From contig CAIYRQ010000071.1 of the NCBI GenBank assembly GCA_903928635.1, positions 1 through 33,384 on the forward strand: a stretch of 33,384 bases of DNA, given 5' to 3'. Made by a program: the position numbers and the translations under genes. Source of the stretch: an uncultured beta proteobacterium. GTDB lineage: Bacteria > Pseudomonadota > Gammaproteobacteria > Burkholderiales > Burkholderiaceae_C. Below the pieces are notes generated by a model. That model worked only from the letters and a program-made list of their open reading frames with translations, was not told the DNA's origin and made no database searches. This document shows positions 3,721-33,384 of the stretch, piece by piece. Every line of letters begins with the position of its first letter. Within the stretch, counting starts at the first letter, position 1.

Positions 3721-3767
3721 CCTGCGCAACCAAACCCTCAGCTCTTACCTCACCACAGGACACTGCT

Positions 3768-7873: not shown

Positions 7874-8800
7874 TCAGGGTTGAACAGTGGCAGGACAGGC
7901 TGGCAGCCACCGCCCGCCAAATACATTGAGCAGCAGACCCGCCATCAGCAAGCCGCCGCCCGCCAAGTGCACGGGTTGCAGCGCCTCCCCAAATATCACC
8001 CATCCGCTGGACAGGCCCACCAGAGGCACGAGCAAGCTAAAAGGCGCCACCCGGTTGGCCGGATAGCGCTGCAGCATGCGGGTCCATACCCCGTAGCCAA
8101 ACAAGGTGGCGCCCCACGACAGGTAGACCAGCGCCGCAAGCGACGCCCCGCGAAAGCTCATCAATGCCTCTGCCATGGCCTGGGTCCCTTCAAGCCACAC
8201 CGACAGCAGCAAAAAGGGAACGGGCGGCACCAGGCTGGCCCACACCACAAACGCTTGTTGGTCGAAGGGCGCAAAGCGCGCCAATTTGCGCGTCACGATG
8301 TTGCCGGCTGCCCACATGAGCGCAGCCGCCACCGTCAACGCAAATCCAAGCAGCGGCATGCTGAGGCCATGGGCGCTGCCAATGAGCACCAGCCCTGCGC
8401 CGGCCAGCACCAAGCCCGCGAGCTGGTGGCGCTGCCAGCGCTCTTGGAGCCAGAGCGCCGCAAACACCATGGTGAAAAATGCCTGCGACTGCAGGACCAA
8501 AGACGCCAGGCCCGACGGCATGCCCAAGTGGATAGCAGAAAACAAAAATGCAAATTGTCCCACCGAGATGCTGAGGCCATAGGCGAGGTACCAGCGCAGT
8601 GGCAGCTTGGGTGCTTTGAAAAAAAGCAGCGCCGGAAATGCCGCCAGCATGAACCGCAATGCCCCAAGAAACAAGGGAGGGATACCGGCGACGCCGATCT
8701 TGATGGCGGCGAAGTTCATGCCCCAGACTACCACCACCAGCATCAAGAGCCCGAAGTCGCGCGGGGTAACAGAAGTGTGGGCGGTGGATAAATCGGGCAT
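7874..8800 (-). CDS. EamA/DMT-superfamily permease
   Basis: Multiple TM segments, 'VVVWGMNFAAIKIG' N-terminus, duplicated EamA architecture; ATG at 8800 chosen. Confidence 0.85.
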   Translation of the reverse strand: MPDLSTAHTSVTPRDFGLLMLVVVVWGMNFAAIKIGVAGIPPLFLGALRFMLAAFPALLFFKAPKLPLRWYLAYGLSISVGQFAFLFSAIHLGMPSGLASLVLQSQAFFTMVFAALWLQERWQRHQLAGLVLAGAGLVLIGSAHGLSMPLLGFALTVAAALMWAAGNIVTRKLARFAPFDQQAFVVWASLVPPVPFLLLSVWLEGTQAMAEALMSFRGASLAALVYLSWGATLFGYGVWTRMLQRYPANRVAPFSLLVPLVGLSSGWVIFGEALQPVHLAGGGLLMAGLLLNVFGGRWLPACPATVQP

Positions 8801-11218: not shown

Positions 11219-12031
11219 TTAACCCAGCGTGGCCAGACCGTGCCAGCCTTCCCAGGCCATCCAGGCCGCCACCAGCAGCATCAAGACCACCGACAAATAA
11301 GGCGCTTTGTCCGCCCACTTGCCAAAGCCACCCCAATGCCGCGCGGCATGGCGCACGCTCAAGGCCGCCAGTGCCCCGGACGCAACCATGGTGAGTGCCA
11401 AGCCCAGACTAAAGCCCAGCACCAAGGTCGCCCCCAACGCTACTTGCTTGAGCTGCAGGCACAAGAGGAGCACGGTGATCGAAGCAGGGCATGGGATCAG
11501 GCCGCCGGTCAGACCGAACACCACAATTTGCCCGGTCGTGACCTCTTGCCCTGGCTTGCCAAAGCGCCGCGCAATGTCGTCGGCATGCGCCTGCGCATGG
11601 CTGTCCAACACAGGGCCGTCATGGTCATGGTCATGGTCGTGATTGTGATTGTGATCGTGATCGTGATCGTGGTGATGGTGGTCGTGCACCGCCCGCCCGG
11701 TACGCGCCCACATCCACACAGCGGTACCGGCAATCAACATGCTGGAAACCAGCTGCATATAAGGCTCGCTGGCAGCTGCGTTCCAGTGCTGGCCGAAATA
11801 CAGGCCGCCCATGGCCACCGCCCATACCACGGCAGTGTGCGACAGGGTGGCCGCCAAGCCCAGTAACACTGCCTGTGCCACCGTGCCCCGGATGGCAATG
11901 ATGAACGCCGCCATCACCGTCTTGGAGTGTCCGGGCTCCAACCCATGCAAGGCACCCAGGGCAACGGCGCTGGGAAGGAACAGCCAGGCGCTGGCGCCCC
12001 CTTGCTGCAATAGACTGGATAAATCGTTCAT
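11219..12031 (-). CDS. RcnA-like nickel/cobalt efflux transporter with His/Asp-rich cytoplasmic loop
   Basis: 'ALGALHGLEPGHSKTVMAAFIIAIRGT...ATLSHTAVVW' plus 'HDHHHHDHDHDHNHNHDHDHDHD' loop and 'GLTGGLIPCPASITVLLL'. Confidence 0.87.
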   Translation of the reverse strand: MNDLSSLLQQGGASAWLFLPSAVALGALHGLEPGHSKTVMAAFIIAIRGTVAQAVLLGLAATLSHTAVVWAVAMGGLYFGQHWNAAASEPYMQLVSSMLIAGTAVWMWARTGRAVHDHHHHDHDHDHNHNHDHDHDHDGPVLDSHAQAHADDIARRFGKPGQEVTTGQIVVFGLTGGLIPCPASITVLLLCLQLKQVALGATLVLGFSLGLALTMVASGALAALSVRHAARHWGGFGKWADKAPYLSVVLMLLVAAWMAWEGWHGLATLG

Positions 12032-12076
12032 CTTCCCAGTGTAGATGCGTTGGATCAAGGGTTAACCAGTAGAGAA

Positions 12077-12103
12077 TTAGCACTCTTTGCCGTTGAGTGC
12101 TAA
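12077..12103. promoter_or_regulatory. CIRCE operator (HrcA-binding inverted repeat) upstream of rpoH
   Basis: TTAGCACTC-TTTGCCGTT-GAGTGCTAA: exact match to consensus TTAGCACTC-N9-GAGTGCTAA. Confidence 0.93.
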
Positions 12104-12134
12104 TATTGCGGTCATGGACACAAGGAGTGCTGCA

Positions 12135-13073
12135 ATGTCTTACGCAATCGGAACAACTACCGCGCTGGCCACGGCCAATCCCTGGTCATTGGTGCCGTCG
12201 CTGGGCAATTTGGACGCCTATATCTCTGCGGCCAACCGCATGCCGATGCTCACCTTAGAGGAAGAGCAGCGTTTTGCGCGCCAGTTCAAAGAACACAACG
12301 ACCTGGACGCGGCTGGAAAGCTGGTGCTCTCGCACCTGCGCTTGGTCGTTTCCGTGGCACGGCAGTACCTGGGCTACGGCCTGGCCCATGGCGACTTGAT
12401 CCAGGAAGGCAATGTCGGCCTGATGAAAGCCGTCAAGCGCTTTGACCCGGACCAAGGCGTGCGCCTGGTGAGCTATGCGCTGCACTGGATCAAGGCCGAA
12501 ATCCATGAATACATTCTGAAAAACTGGCGCATGGTCAAGGTGGCGACCACCAAGGCCCAGCGCAAGCTGTTTTTCAACTTGCGCTCCATGAAGCAGCGCT
12601 TCAAATCCGATGACGCCGCGGCCGATTTGGGCACCCACCGCGACACGCTGACCCCTGAGCAAGTCGACGCCATGGCGCGTGAGCTTAACGTCAAGCCGGA
12701 AGAAGTGCTGGAAATGGAGACCCGCCTTTCCGGCGGCGATGTGTTACTTGACCCCACTGCCAGCGAGGACGGCGAAGACGCCTTTGGCCCGATCGCTTAC
12801 CTCACCGACAGCAGCCACGAACCCTTGGCCATGATCGAAGCGCACCGTCGCGACGTGCTGGCCTCGGACGGAATTGCCAGCGCGCTCGAAACACTGGACG
12901 CGCGCAGTCGCCGCATTGTGGAAGAGCGCTGGCTCAAGGTGAACGACGACAACTCAGGCGGCATGACGCTGCATGATCTGGCCGCCGAGTACGGTGTCAG
13001 CGCCGAGCGCATCCGCCAAATCGAGGTGGCGGCCATGAAGAAGATGAAAACGGCGCTGGTCGATTACGCCTAA
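12135..13073 (+). CDS. rpoH: RNA polymerase heat-shock sigma factor (sigma-32)
   Basis: 'LVLSHLRLVVSVARQYLGYGLAHGDLIQEGNVGLMKAVKRFDPDQGVRLVSYALHWIKAEIHEYILKNWRMVKVATTKAQRKLFFNLR'; SD AAGGAG at 12122-12127 before ATG 12135. Confidence 0.95.
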   Translation: MSYAIGTTTALATANPWSLVPSLGNLDAYISAANRMPMLTLEEEQRFARQFKEHNDLDAAGKLVLSHLRLVVSVARQYLGYGLAHGDLIQEGNVGLMKAVKRFDPDQGVRLVSYALHWIKAEIHEYILKNWRMVKVATTKAQRKLFFNLRSMKQRFKSDDAAADLGTHRDTLTPEQVDAMARELNVKPEEVLEMETRLSGGDVLLDPTASEDGEDAFGPIAYLTDSSHEPLAMIEAHRRDVLASDGIASALETLDARSRRIVEERWLKVNDDNSGGMTLHDLAAEYGVSAERIRQIEVAAMKKMKTALVDYA

Positions 13074-13079
13074 TCAAGC

Positions 13080-13688
13080 CTAGTTGCGCAGCAACTGCGC
13101 GATGTCGGCGGCCAACACCGAAGCACCGCTGCCGTAGCGGGTAAACAGGCGCAGTTGCCCCTTGCTGTCGTACACATAGCTGCCCGCGGAATGGTCCATG
13201 GTGTAGCTGGTGGCACTGGCGCCCGGCACCTTTTTGTAATAGATCTTGAACTCCTTGGCGACGGCAGCGAGCTCCTCGGGCGTCGGACGCAAGGCCAGGA
13301 AGCTGGCGTCGAAATTGGCCATGTACGCTTTGAGCAGCTCAGGCGTATCGCGCTCAGGGTCCACGGTGACAAAGAGACCTTGCACGCGGTCGCCATCTTT
13401 GCCCAACAGTTTTTTCACCTCGGCAAGCTCCGCCAACGTAGTGGGACAGACGTCCGGGCATTGGGTGTAACCAAAAAACACCACGACCACCTTGCCCGCA
13501 AAGTCCGACAAGTGCCGCACCTGTCCGTTGTGGTCTGCCAGCGCCACCGCCTTACCGTAGTCAGCGCCGGTGATGTCAATGGAGCTGAATACGGGTTTTT
13601 TCTCGCCGCATGCGGTCAAGTTGCCCGCCAAAAGTGCAGCTGCTGCAAGTGCGGGCAGCGCTTTGAGGAATTGACGCAGAGAGTTCAT
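13080..13688 (-). CDS. SCO1/SenC-family cytochrome oxidase copper chaperone lipoprotein
   Basis: Lipoprotein-like signal ('[10 protein letters not shown]'), '[18 protein letters not shown]' CxxxC motif, '[11 protein letters not shown]'. Confidence 0.93.
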
Positions 13689-14590
13689 AGCAGGTAATGG
13701 TCCAGCAGCAGCGCGGCGAACAAAGCGCTCAAGTGAATCAAGGAAAAGCGAAAGGTCTTGCGCGCCAGAGCATCGGAGTAGTCGCGCATCAGTTGCCATG
13801 CATACCAGCAAAACCCCAGGCTCAGCACCACCGCAGTGGCCAAATACAGCCAGGAGCTCATGCCCAGCATGAACGGCAACAGGCAGGCAGCAAACAACAC
13901 CCAGGTGTAGAGCAGGATCTGCAGGCGGGTGAACTCACTGCCATGCGTCACCGGCAGCATCGGCAGGCCCGACTTGCGGTAATCCTCCACCCGGTACAGT
14001 GCCAGGGCCCAGAAATGCGGCGGCGTCCACAGGAAGATGATGAGAAACAAGACCAAGGCCTCAGGCCCCACATCACCCGTCATGGCAGCCCACCCGAGCA
14101 CGGGCGGCATGGCACCCGAGGCGCCGCCGATCACAATATTCTGCGGCGTCAGAGGTTTGAGGATGACGGTGTAAATCACCGCGTAACCCACAAAAGTGGC
14201 GAAGGTGAGCCACATGGTGAGCGGATTGACGGTCCAGTACAAAATTGCCGAACCCGCCGCAGCCAAGATCGCTGAAAACAGCAAGGTTTGTGTGTTGCTC
14301 AACTCCCCGCGCGCAGTGGGGCGCCACGCGGTGCGCTTCATCTTGGCGTCAATGCCCTGCTCTACGATGCAGTTAAAAGCTGCTGCGGCAGCCGCGACCA
14401 GCCAAATTCCGATACAGGCACGAGCCGCCACGCCCACCTGGTCCAGTGACGGCACGCCCGGCACAGCGAGCACCATGCCAATCAGCGCGCAAAAAACGAT
14501 CAGTTGAATCACGCGTGGCTTGGTCAGCGCATTGAACTGGCGCAGCACAGACAGTGAAGGCGCTGCAGGTGTTGGGTTGAGGTCGGTCAC
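13685..14590 (-). CDS. ctaB: Protoheme IX farnesyltransferase (heme O synthase)
   Basis: '[19 protein letters not shown]', '[20 protein letters not shown]', '[25 protein letters not shown]'; GTG start at 14590 inferred. Confidence 0.93.
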
Positions 14591-29619: not shown

Positions 29620-30834
29620 ATGCTGCTCGATTTTTTTTACACGCTGCGAAGCGCCAAACTGCCGGTCTCGGTCAAAGAGTTCCTCACGCTGCTCGAAGCC
29701 CTGCAAAAAGGCGTGGTTGGCCCCAATGCAGCGGAACCAGCGGACGGTGAAGAAGTGCAGGGCTACAAAGTCGACGACTTCTACTACCTGAGCCGCGCGG
29801 CGCTGGTGAAAGACGAGAAGCACTACGATAAGTTCGACCGCGCATTTGCCGCTTACTTCAAAGGCGTCGAGCTGATTGCCGATTTCACCAAAGAAGTGCC
29901 CCTGGAGTGGTTGCGCAAAAACCTGGAGCTGCAACTCAGCCCCGAAGAACTGGCCAAAATTGAAAAAATGGGCTGGGACGAGCTCATGGAGACGTTAAAA
30001 AAGCGCTTTGAAGAACAGAAAGAGCGCCACGAAGGCGGCAGCAAATGGATCGGTACGGGCGGTACTTCGCCTTTCGGCGCCTACGGCCACAACCCGCAAG
30101 GCATACGCATTGGCCAAGACAAAAGCCGCAACCGCAGTGCCGTCAAGGTGTGGGACCAACGCGCCTACAAAGACTATGACGACACCCAGGAACTGGGCAC
30201 GCGCAACATCAAGGTCGCATTGCGCCGCTTGCGCAAGTTCGCCCGCGAAGGCAACGATCTCGAACTCGACCTGGACGACACCATCCGCAGCACAGCGGCC
30301 AATGCAGGCTACCTGGACATCAAGATGATTCCGGAACGGCACAATAACGTCAAAGTGCTGCTGCTGATGGACGTGGGCGGCACCATGGATGACCACATTG
30401 CGAGGGTCGAGGAGCTTTTCAGCGCGACCAAGACGGAGTTCAAGCACCTGGAGTTTTATTACTTCCACAACTGCGTCTATGACTTCATGTGGAAGAACAA
30501 CCGGCGCCGCTTTGCCGAAAAATTTGCGACCTGGGACATCATCCGCAAGTACAACAAAGACTACAAGCTCATCTTTGTCGGCGACGCCACCATGAGCCCG
30601 TATGAGATCTTGCAACCCGGCGGCAGCGTGGAATACAACAACGAAGAGCCCGGCGCCGACTGGCTGCAGCGCCTGACCAGTGCCTTCCCCAAGTTCGCCT
30701 GGATTAACCCCGAACCCCAGGGCGTTTGGCAATACCGCCAAAGCATCAGCGTGATTCAGCAGCTGATGCAGCAACGCATGTACCCCCTCACCCTCAAAGG
30801 ATTGGAGGAGGCGATGCGGATGTTGACGAAGTGA
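29620..30834 (+). CDS. VWA domain (CoxE-like) protein partner of MoxR
   Basis: 'VKVLLLMDVGGTMDDHIARVEELFSATKTEFKHLEFYYFHNCVYDFMW' degenerate MIDAS; downstream of moxR on the same strand. Confidence 0.9.
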   Translation: MLLDFFYTLRSAKLPVSVKEFLTLLEALQKGVVGPNAAEPADGEEVQGYKVDDFYYLSRAALVKDEKHYDKFDRAFAAYFKGVELIADFTKEVPLEWLRKNLELQLSPEELAKIEKMGWDELMETLKKRFEEQKERHEGGSKWIGTGGTSPFGAYGHNPQGIRIGQDKSRNRSAVKVWDQRAYKDYDDTQELGTRNIKVALRRLRKFAREGNDLELDLDDTIRSTAANAGYLDIKMIPERHNNVKVLLLMDVGGTMDDHIARVEELFSATKTEFKHLEFYYFHNCVYDFMWKNNRRRFAEKFATWDIIRKYNKDYKLIFVGDATMSPYEILQPGGSVEYNNEEPGADWLQRLTSAFPKFAWINPEPQGVWQYRQSISVIQQLMQQRMYPLTLKGLEEAMRMLTK

Positions 30835-30942
30835 AGCTTCGTTCACCGGTCGCACCACCTCGTTGATTGATAGGGTACTTCCGTTTCAACCTTGATAGCC
30901 ATCCCCTCAACCATTTCTTCAGCCAATAAAGGGCCAACTACC

Positions 30943-32196
30943 ATGGCATTGCCAATCGCTTTCACATTGAAAAAAATCCCCTTCACCGCTTTGGTGGCCA
31001 CCGCTCTGTTAGGGGCTTTGAGCGCGCACGCCGAGGTCATCAAGATTGGCTTTATCGAGGTGCTGTCCGGCCCCTTCGCCAAGACGGGAGATGGGTCGCT
31101 GAGCCAGTTGCGCGAAGTCGCGCTACAACTCAACGCCAAGGCAAAACCTGGTGAGCCAACGTTTGAGATTGTTCCGTTCGATGGCAAAGGCTCGCCCCAG
31201 GAGAGTGTTGTGGCGCTCAAGTCCGCGGTAGACCAGGGCATTCACTACATCACCCAGGGTGGTGGTAGCGGCGTGGCGTTGGCTTTGACCGAGGCAATTG
31301 GCAAGTTGGCTGAACGCGAACCTGAAAAGGCGGTGGTGTTCCTGAACTACGCCGCGATGGACCCTTTGCTCACCAACGACCGTTGCAATTTTTGGCACTT
31401 TCGCTTTTACCCCTCAAGCGAAATGAAGATCGAAGCCCTGACCACCTACCTGGTCAAACGCCCTGACGTCAAGAAAGTCTTTCTTTTCAACCAAAACTAC
31501 ACCCACGGTCAACAGGTCGCGAAGGCCTCGCGGCTGTACCTGAGCCGCAAACGACCGGACGTCACCATCGTGGGCGACGACATGATTCCGATCGCTCAAG
31601 TGCGCGACTTTTCACCCTACGTCGCCAAAATCAAGGCCTCGGGCGCGGACACGGTCATCACTTCCAACTGGGGCAGCGATCTGACTTTGTTCTTCAAAGC
31701 GGCAAAAGAAGGTGGACTGAACATCAACTTCTTCACCATGAATGCCAACAACCCCGGTACTCCAGCAGAAATGGGATCCTGGGGCGCCGAGAAAGTCGGC
31801 GTTATCTGGAACTGGGGCCATAACGCACCCACGCCAGAGTTGGAGAAAACTTACCTGGCCTACAAGGCCAAATACAACGAAGACTTCATTTTTGCTGCCC
31901 ACTGGAATTCGCTCAGCATGCTGTCGGCAGCCATCCAAAAAGCCAAAACCACCGAAGCCAAGAAAGTCGCCTACGCTCTGGAAGGCATGCAGTACAAGAG
32001 TCCAATCGGCGAAGTGGAAATGCGAAAAACCGATCACCAGTTACTGGCGCCTCTGTTTTTGGGCATCTGGGCCAAACAGGGCAGCAAGGGTGTGAAGTAC
32101 GACGCAGAAAAAACCGGCTATGGCTTCCGCTCGGAAGTCGTTTGGGACTCTTACATCAGCGCACAACCCACGTCTTGCCAGATGGTTCGTCCGTAG
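30943..32196 (+). CDS. ABC transporter periplasmic substrate-binding protein, branched-chain amino acid (LivK/Peripla_BP_6) type
   Basis: Signal peptide, 'IKIGFIEVLSGPFAKTGDGSLSQLREVALQLNAKAKPGEPTFEIVPFDGKGSPQESVVALKSAVDQ'; no permease/ATPase genes in window. Confidence 0.9.
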   Translation: MALPIAFTLKKIPFTALVATALLGALSAHAEVIKIGFIEVLSGPFAKTGDGSLSQLREVALQLNAKAKPGEPTFEIVPFDGKGSPQESVVALKSAVDQGIHYITQGGGSGVALALTEAIGKLAEREPEKAVVFLNYAAMDPLLTNDRCNFWHFRFYPSSEMKIEALTTYLVKRPDVKKVFLFNQNYTHGQQVAKASRLYLSRKRPDVTIVGDDMIPIAQVRDFSPYVAKIKASGADTVITSNWGSDLTLFFKAAKEGGLNINFFTMNANNPGTPAEMGSWGAEKVGVIWNWGHNAPTPELEKTYLAYKAKYNEDFIFAAHWNSLSMLSAAIQKAKTTEAKKVAYALEGMQYKSPIGEVEMRKTDHQLLAPLFLGIWAKQGSKGVKYDAEKTGYGFRSEVVWDSYISAQPTSCQMVRP

Positions 32197-32220
32197 GCCC
32201 GTTGCAGCAAAACATGCTCC

Positions 32221-32245
32221 CCTCCCCTTCAAAAGGTTGGGGAGG
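32221..32245. other. GC-rich hairpin after the substrate-binding protein gene; possible terminator lacking a U tract
   Basis: CCTCCCC-TTCAAAAGGTT-GGGGAGG, 7-bp perfect stem. Confidence 0.4.
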
Positions 32246-32323
32246 AGATGAAGATGTTGACGAAGTACACGCCGTTCAAGGCCACGGCGGCGTCATAGGC
32301 GCACCCTAAAATGCCCTACCCCT

Positions 32324-32360
32324 CGCCGTAGCACAATGGATAGTGCGCATGCCTCCTAAT
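32324..32360 (+). pseudogene. 5' half of a tRNA-Arg(CCT)-like gene, ending at the anticodon loop
   Basis: ...TA-GCAC-AATGGATA-GTGC-G-CATGC-CTCCTAA: perfect D-stem, anticodon 5' stem CATGC and 7-nt loop with CCT; the expected 3' stem GCATG is replaced by TATCT and no T-arm follows. Confidence 0.65.
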
Positions 32361-32415
32361 ATCTCCAATTTGGCAACGAATATCCAGTGTTTATCCTCAG
32401 TGCTCACCATCAGAG

Positions 32416-32464
32416 TGTGTCCAGTGGATTGACACAAACTGGGGGTGGATTGGGTGTCCCCAGT
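32416..32464. repeat. Two consecutive inverted repeats, each with GTGGATT in its loop
   Basis: TGTGTC-CAGTGGATT-GACACA (32416-32436) and ACTGGGG-GTGGATTGGGTGT-CCCCAGT (32438-32464); GTGGATTG recurs at 32424 and 32445. Confidence 0.7.
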
Positions 32465-32515
32465 CTTACCCCACTCTAGATTTCCTCTGCAGCTTGTCCA
32501 GTTAATTGGGCAAAT

Positions 32516-33242
32516 CTACAGGGTTACCTTGTTCAATTTGAACGAAATCTCATACCGGTAGAACGAAATATCTGGGGTCATTGCCAAGGCACGTCTAATC
32601 TTTACGTCGTCTTCCAAAGCAATGATGATGCCCTTGACCACTTGATTCGGATCAGCCAATTCCTGTTTGACAAAGCCCATGTATCTCAGAACCTGCCCGA
32701 CAACGACATCACTGGCACGTCCCTTCTTGAGCTCTACAACAAGCAACTGCGACTTGTCCTTCTTGATCGCCAGAACATCCATCGGACCTGTATCCGTTTG
32801 ATACTGCTGACCAACAAGTTCACCATCTTCCTCAAAAATATCGTAGTCACGTCCAAGGTCGGTTTGCCGCCAGTTCTTGACAAGAAAATCCTCAAGATGT
32901 TTTTCCAAAGCAAATTCAGACGGGTTTTCAACGGTCCCATCGTTGGTGGTGATTAACGTTGGAGCATTACCTGCAATCAGCAATTCAATTTCAGCGGCAT
33001 AACTTGAAATATTGCTAACGGTTCCAATTGAACCGGTGCTGCTCTTCAGGTTGTCAGACATTGCTGCTCTGTCGATCAGCCTCTCCGACCACTTAACTCG
33101 ACGACGGTGGGGAAGCACTCCTCCCGGCTGGTAGTAGTAGCTACCAGTGACCTCACCGACTCGGTACGCACCCATACCATCGGGACACAGAACTGTGTCT
33201 CCAATTTTTATCCCTTTAGAAACCGTCCAAAGAAAACCACAT
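32516..33242 (-). pseudogene. NucS/DUF91-like PD-(D/E)XK nuclease with N-terminal domain remnant; apparently 5'-truncated by an IS
   Basis: 'ENPSEFALEKHLEDFLVKNW...GPMDVLAIKKDKSQLLVVELKKGRASDVVVGQVLRYMGFVKQEL' (D...ExK); the frame continues upstream of the track ATG (33175) as '...CGFLWTVSKGIKIGDTVLCPDGMGAYRVGEVTGSYYYQPGGVLPHRRRVKW' to the putative IS end. Confidence 0.7.
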
Positions 33243-33244
33243 GC

Positions 33245-33384
33245 TGGACGTCACCCGTTTCAATAGACACTTGTTAAGGTCTAAATTGAACTGGAGTGAT
33301 AGTCATGAAGAGAGTGAGATACCCGGCCGAATTCAAGGCTGAAGCGGTGCGCCAAGTAACTGAGCGTGGCCACGGAGTCGTTGA
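33245..33384 (+). mobile_element. Left end of IS3-family insertion sequence, continues past window
   Basis: Terminal-repeat-like TGGACGTCACCCGTTTCAATAGACACTTG followed by a transposase OrfA start; exact end inferred. Confidence 0.65.
33305..33384 (+). CDS. IS3-family transposase OrfA, N-terminus only
   Basis: ATG at 33305: MKRVRYPAEFKAEAVRQVTERGHGVV..., IS3 OrfA HTH-type N-terminus. Confidence 0.88.
   Translation, partial: MKRVRYPAEFKAEAVRQVTERGHGVV

Follow-up and report, generated by a model that had tools for sequence, protein, structure and literature searches.

A displaced tRNA-Arg(CCT) 5′ half, very probably the left attachment site of an integrative element, at a contig end of an uncultured betaproteobacterium

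The window, the whole stretch of 33,384 nucleotides that was analyzed, is contig C71 of a 297-contig bin (genome G000, estimated contamination ∼5%) from an uncultured betaproteobacterium. Toward its right end, core genes encoding a moxR-type ATPase, a GNAT protein, a vWA-domain protein, and then a periplasmic binding protein are followed by a truncated NucS-like nuclease and the end of an insertion sequence (IS), and the switch of gene content that an earlier note on this DNA had placed at the junction is thus real. The region contains the following features.

29620–30834, + strand: vWA-domain (CoxE-like) host gene, the left core flank
30892–32196, + strand: periplasmic binding protein gene (Pfam Peripla_BP_6), on the host side of the junction
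32305–32359, + strand: 55-bp direct repeat (upstream box plus tRNA 5′ half)
32307–32312, + strand: TAAAAT, −10-like box of the tRNA gene, kept in uninterrupted relatives and in element-supplied copies
32322–32359, + strand: displaced 5′ half of tRNA-Arg(CCT), very probably attL, recognized by identity to the intact gene
32353–32359, + strand: anticodon loop CTCCTAA, the presumed crossover (overlap) region, within which the exact exchange point would lie
32360–32520, + strand: conserved left end of an element family, 89–96% identical in C176, G024, and G411
32383–32502, + strand: cluster of direct repeats (TCCAGT / TCCTCAGT / TCCCCAGT) at 32383, 32394, 32420, 32457, and 32497
32516–33175, − strand: NucS-like PDDEXK nuclease lacking its N-terminal third (PADLOC PDC-S02 and Pfam NucS_C)
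33245–33384, + strand: left end of the IS, repeated at the ends of contigs C179, C221, and C87, up to the contig break

A copy of the 3′ tail of the vWA gene (30767–30832), ∼80% identical, is found at 32203–32266, beyond the periplasmic binding protein gene. The latter gene therefore appears to have been inserted between the tRNA and vWA, which are direct neighbors in relatives. On the other side of the junction, the nuclease aligned with positions 93–307 of the 308 positions of PDC-S02 (E = 8e-112), a candidate defense nuclease model; the match was not full-length, and the C-terminal part is clearly homologous. Because the first third of the protein is missing and an IS end lies just upstream at 33245, the gene is probably a defense candidate broken by the IS. 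The contig ends inside this IS, and the integrase and right end of the window element lie outside the sequence seen. A DNA cytosine methyltransferase-like open reading frame on C179 (L011:3958–5307) runs into the same IS end at a contig break.

Comparison of the tRNA-like stretch with bases 1–38 of the intact tRNA-Arg(CCT) that ARAGORN called in the same genome revealed identity at 38 of 38 positions, which excludes a chance match and bears out the earlier claim of a genuine tRNA-Arg(CCT) 5′ half. The broken gene had been placed at 32324–32361; it does lie there, but it starts two bases earlier. The match extends to the end of the anticodon loop and breaks off immediately after CTCCTAA, as had been read, but the GCATG expected next is GCGTG in the intact gene, where it forms the 3′ strand of the anticodon stem. 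No tRNA was called in the window by ARAGORN or Rfam. The TAAAAT box that precedes the fragment may have promoter activity.

The DNA that follows the fragment is the left end (TACCTCCAATTTGGC) shared by the element family. TCCAGT occurs three times within 159 bp of this end, which was seen in 0 of 10,000 shuffles, and the TCCAGT-type repeats are candidate arm-type integrase sites.

DNA searches of the G000 contigs, including searches with the tRNA as query, led to contig C176. Positions 445–658 of this contig are 91% identical to window positions 32301–32514 and comprise the same 5′ half with the 150 bp that follow it, and positions 8005–8059 are 100% identical to the 55-bp repeat of the window and lie ahead of the intact gene. 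Beyond C176, these searches returned no further full-length tRNA-Arg(CCT) or 3′ half in G000. The layout of C176 is as follows.

1–75: right end of the IS, likewise present close to the start of seven further contigs
between the IS end and the first element right end: short open reading frame
just before the 5′ half: element right end of ∼95 bp, which recurs at 7922–8016
466–503, + strand: tRNA-Arg(CCT) 5′ half
between the 5′ half and the integrase gene: shared left end, then a 121-amino acid open reading frame
1290–2375: tyrosine integrase (PF00589, E = 1e-28)
after the integrase: CyRepA1-family helicase-primase of 1005 amino acids (NCBIfam NF042913, 317.4 bits against a curated cut-off of 200)
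between CyRepA1 and the second right end: weak RHH match, small protein, and DEDD exonuclease
8022–8096, + strand: intact tRNA-Arg(CCT) (ARAGORN), then dtd and tyrS

The fragment at 466–503 and the gene at 8022–8096 lie on the same strand with the fragment on the correct side, which is the signature used in the Islander survey (PMC4383910) and is also present in G411; for the window fragment, the intact gene sits on another contig, C176. The integrase gene lies inside the interval on C176, is intact, and is located ∼0.8 kb inside the left end. Tandem occupancy is evident on C176, where a right end abuts a second 5′ half and left end. When the main open reading frames of the ∼7.5-kb C176 element were compared with Pfam, NCBIfam, and PHROGs, no phage structural or conjugation genes were found, and only integration and replication functions were recognized; the window element is incomplete.

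The anticodon loop of tRNA-Arg(CCU) can host group I introns, and the earlier note had allowed for one here, in which case the 5′ half would be an exon cis-spliced to a 3′ exon further on. Introns are indeed known in this very loop, but neither the window nor C176 gave an Rfam group I match, leaving that alternative unsupported, and what follows the 5′ half is the conserved end of an element that carries nuclease or integrase genes. Furthermore, a complete 5′ half already directly precedes the 3′ half present in this genome, and the 55-bp repeat includes the upstream box, which an intron would not duplicate. An intron is accordingly given next to no credence. The other inference in that note, an island attachment-site scar with the other half beyond the window, is by contrast supported, given that the sole matching 3′ half was located on C176 beside an integrase-bearing element and that an uninterrupted gene occupies the syntenic place in a relative, G004.

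In G004, which belongs to the same genus, a single contig carries vWA, ∼9 kb of DNA that we take to hold CO dehydrogenase-like genes, an uninterrupted tRNA-Arg(CCT), dtd, and tyrS, and hence represents an empty site. This contig is collinear both with the left flank of the window (91%) and with C176:8006–14850 (88%). In several other species, moxR, GNAT, and vWA genes lie directly 5′ of the intact tRNA. It had been considered that relatives might have no tRNA at this locus, or that the 5′ match might resemble no tRNA-Arg(CCT); relatives carry tRNA-Arg(CCT) there, and the match is identical.

Occupied sites were also found in the genus. G411 contains a 678-bp remnant consisting of the displaced 5′ half, a left end that is 94% identical to that of the window, a nuclease corresponding to the C-terminal 125 residues of the window nuclease (97%), a right end similar to the right ends on C176, and an intact tRNA. 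In G024, vWA is followed, close to a contig end, by the same 5′ half and by the same left end (96%). Among 103 genomes of the genus, matches confined to tRNA bases 1–38 were found in G000, G024, G411, and G422, and matches confined to bases 30/31 onwards were found in G001, G013, G031, and G397, such that both kinds of fragment break in the anticodon loop. The G422 fragment was rejected as a member of the same family; the family left end does not follow it, and it looks like a different or decayed insertion. G013 was the only 3′-fragment genome inspected more closely. There (L031:6670–11737), this tRNA-Arg(CCT) apparently harbors an unrelated island whose polarity is the usual one: a fragment of bases 31–70, from the 3′ part of the gene, accompanies an integrase with only 24% identity.

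The occupied sites also bear on whether the 5′ half might be a relic of a phage or plasmid tRNA, or an ordinary rearrangement duplicate, rather than the displaced half of the host gene. Partial tRNA copies arise in several ways (PMC9897764), and the duplicated vWA tail nearby would fit a rearrangement. However, the spacing to the vWA tail and the TAAAAT box agree with those of the uninterrupted gene in relatives, G000, G024, and G411 all have a fragment that breaks off at the anticodon loop, and the same element end follows it each time. Such an origin is very unlikely.

The feature is thus, with high confidence, the attL of an integrative element in the sole tRNA-Arg(CCT) found in the genome, with an element-borne 5′ half restoring the gene. 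The following model is proposed. A tyrosine integrase would recombine a circular, presumably mobile element with the tRNA gene within the 7-bp anticodon loop, a position suggested by base 38 being the last of the 5′ fragments and base 30–31 the first of the 3′ fragments seen in relatives. The element would bring its own tRNA 5′ half and −10-like region, so that, once integrated, the element would have at its far end an intact gene composed of its own 5′ half and the host 3′ half, and the original host 5′ half would be stranded at the near, integrase-proximal end as the fragment seen in the window. Because the element would supply its own 5′ half, a working tRNA gene would survive, here on another contig. 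At least two elements would be arranged in tandem, one in the window with the nuclease as IS-broken cargo and one on C176 with the integrase and CyRepA1 that ends at the intact tRNA, and the window would hold the outermost left junction. Two of these points could not be seen by the earlier reader, namely that the element carries the 5′ half, which is the rarer polarity, and that more than one element is present in tandem.

Whether the stranded half has a function of its own, giving rise to a stable tRNA-half RNA or acting as a promoter for element genes from the left end, may be asked because the TAAAAT box is kept and the 38 nucleotides are unchanged in the window, C176, G024, and G411. Recent displacement, selection for re-use of the attachment site, or conversion by the intact copy would likewise explain this conservation, however, and a function is considered very improbable.

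The window and C176 probably belong to a single array, since both flanks are joined in G004, the bin contains a single 3′ half, and the two contigs end in complementary parts of the same IS, the left part at the close of the window and the right part at the start of C176. Joining the two contigs through one IS copy was nonetheless rejected as proof; the IS flanks share no target duplication, and adjacency, with the order window, IS, and C176, is therefore left unproven. The lack of a shared target duplication, together with the ∼5% contamination estimate, would also be compatible with separate insertions in two different strains or species that were binned together, but the ∼88–91% identity of both contigs to the one G004 contig that joins both flanks, the single 3′ half, and the complementary IS ends make this the less favored arrangement, albeit one with an appreciable chance of being correct. 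The attachment-scar reading holds in either case.

Integrases 45–64% identical to that of C176 were present in six genome contigs, and further relatives occurred in two more genomes of the order. In a Comamonadaceae metagenome-assembled genome (MAG; L040) and Limnohabitans sp. Jir61 (L041), the element is bounded by 38- and 55-bp repeats, respectively, of a tRNA-Gly(CCC) 5′ half, with the intact tRNA-Gly(CCC) at the far end. In a Polynucleobacter MAG (L043), the repeat is of a tRNA-Arg(CCT) 5′ half and measures 50 bp, together with a 26-bp upstream repeat that includes TATAAT. The mirror layout was observed in a second Comamonadaceae MAG (L042), in which a 46-bp repeat of a tRNA-Arg(CCG) 3′ half starts at the loop and the intact gene lies at the integrase-proximal end. 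No tRNA half or long repeat was found at the attachment sites of L044, L045, L080, and L081. As the integrases of L040 and L041 are sisters and were counted as one lineage in this small sample, three of the four lineages with a resolved site are 5′-type and one is 3′-type; the inner branches of the integrase tree do not give the order of change between the types. That one lineage uses the other half at the same loop crossover suggests that the carried half would not be fixed by the integrase. It is a tentative possibility, held with less than even confidence, that these integrases constitute a small betaproteobacterial subfamily in which the rare 5′ polarity, giving the host tRNA the 5′ half and upstream region of the element, is overrepresented.

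Several other observations were made on these elements. In L042, a type-B DNA polymerase (11264–13939, − strand; DNA_pol_B_2, E = 9e-13) takes the place of CyRepA1, and the family seems to swap replication modules. A small open reading frame of ∼115–120 amino acids lies just before the integrase gene in L009 (857–1222) and in L040–L045; its products are 35–56% identical, matched no family, and may be an excision or regulatory factor. On a MAG contig labeled Gammaproteobacteria (L045:2428–5260), a head-to-head pair of family integrase genes is present, with identities of 45 and 36% to the query, and the Polynucleobacter element encodes an 825-amino acid protein (L043:3433–5910, − strand) without a Pfam or PADLOC match. 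A phage or plasmid home for the integrase was sought, but none was found: no relatives were found in plasmids, the two found in phages are distant (27%), and IMG/VR yielded none with the single protein as query and one at 30% with an alignment.

In the Islander survey, the fragment was a 3′ one at 3760 islands and a 5′ one at 159, and 2083 anticodon-centered sites and 125 tandems were also counted (PMC4383910). The present case shares with the 5′-fragment islands an intact tRNA gene and a same-strand 5′ fragment that flank a tyrosine-integrase element, an anticodon-loop site, and the occurrence of tandem copies; with this polarity in only 159 of 3919 islands, it belongs to a known, uncommon class, of an ordinary kind but somewhat uncommon polarity. 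It differs from those islands in that a contig end truncates the outer element and in having a decayed relative of 678 bp. As in archaeal pTN3-like elements (PMC8371274), the element would supply the 5′ half and upstream region, leaving the original promoter region unused, but the attachment site of pTN3-like elements lies within the integrase gene and integration splits this gene, whereas the integrase gene here is intact. The helicase-primase belongs, above cut-off, to the same NCBIfam family (NF042913) as the replication proteins of CyRepA1 plasmids, which have been described in cyanobacteria (PMC9978351, PMC10899382); in contrast to those plasmids, its gene, for which a replication role is predicted, lies beside an integrase gene in a chromosomally integrated betaproteobacterial element.

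The additions to what was known are an element family with 5′ polarity, a relative of mirror layout whose integrase is similar, and CyRepA1 in an integrated betaproteobacterial element. An odd half-gene thereby becomes a precisely mapped island end, and the case illustrates how the matching tRNA half may escape notice on another contig when the assembly breaks at an IS. The host tRNA 5′ half and −10-like region would be replaced by copies from the element, a layout described as rare in bacteria. Since either tRNA half may be used by related integrases that share this crossover, the family provides a natural setting in which to test what determines island polarity and whether tRNA expression changes with the element upstream region. 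If the proposed 5′-polarity subfamily is real, its elements could put a single-copy tRNA under element control.
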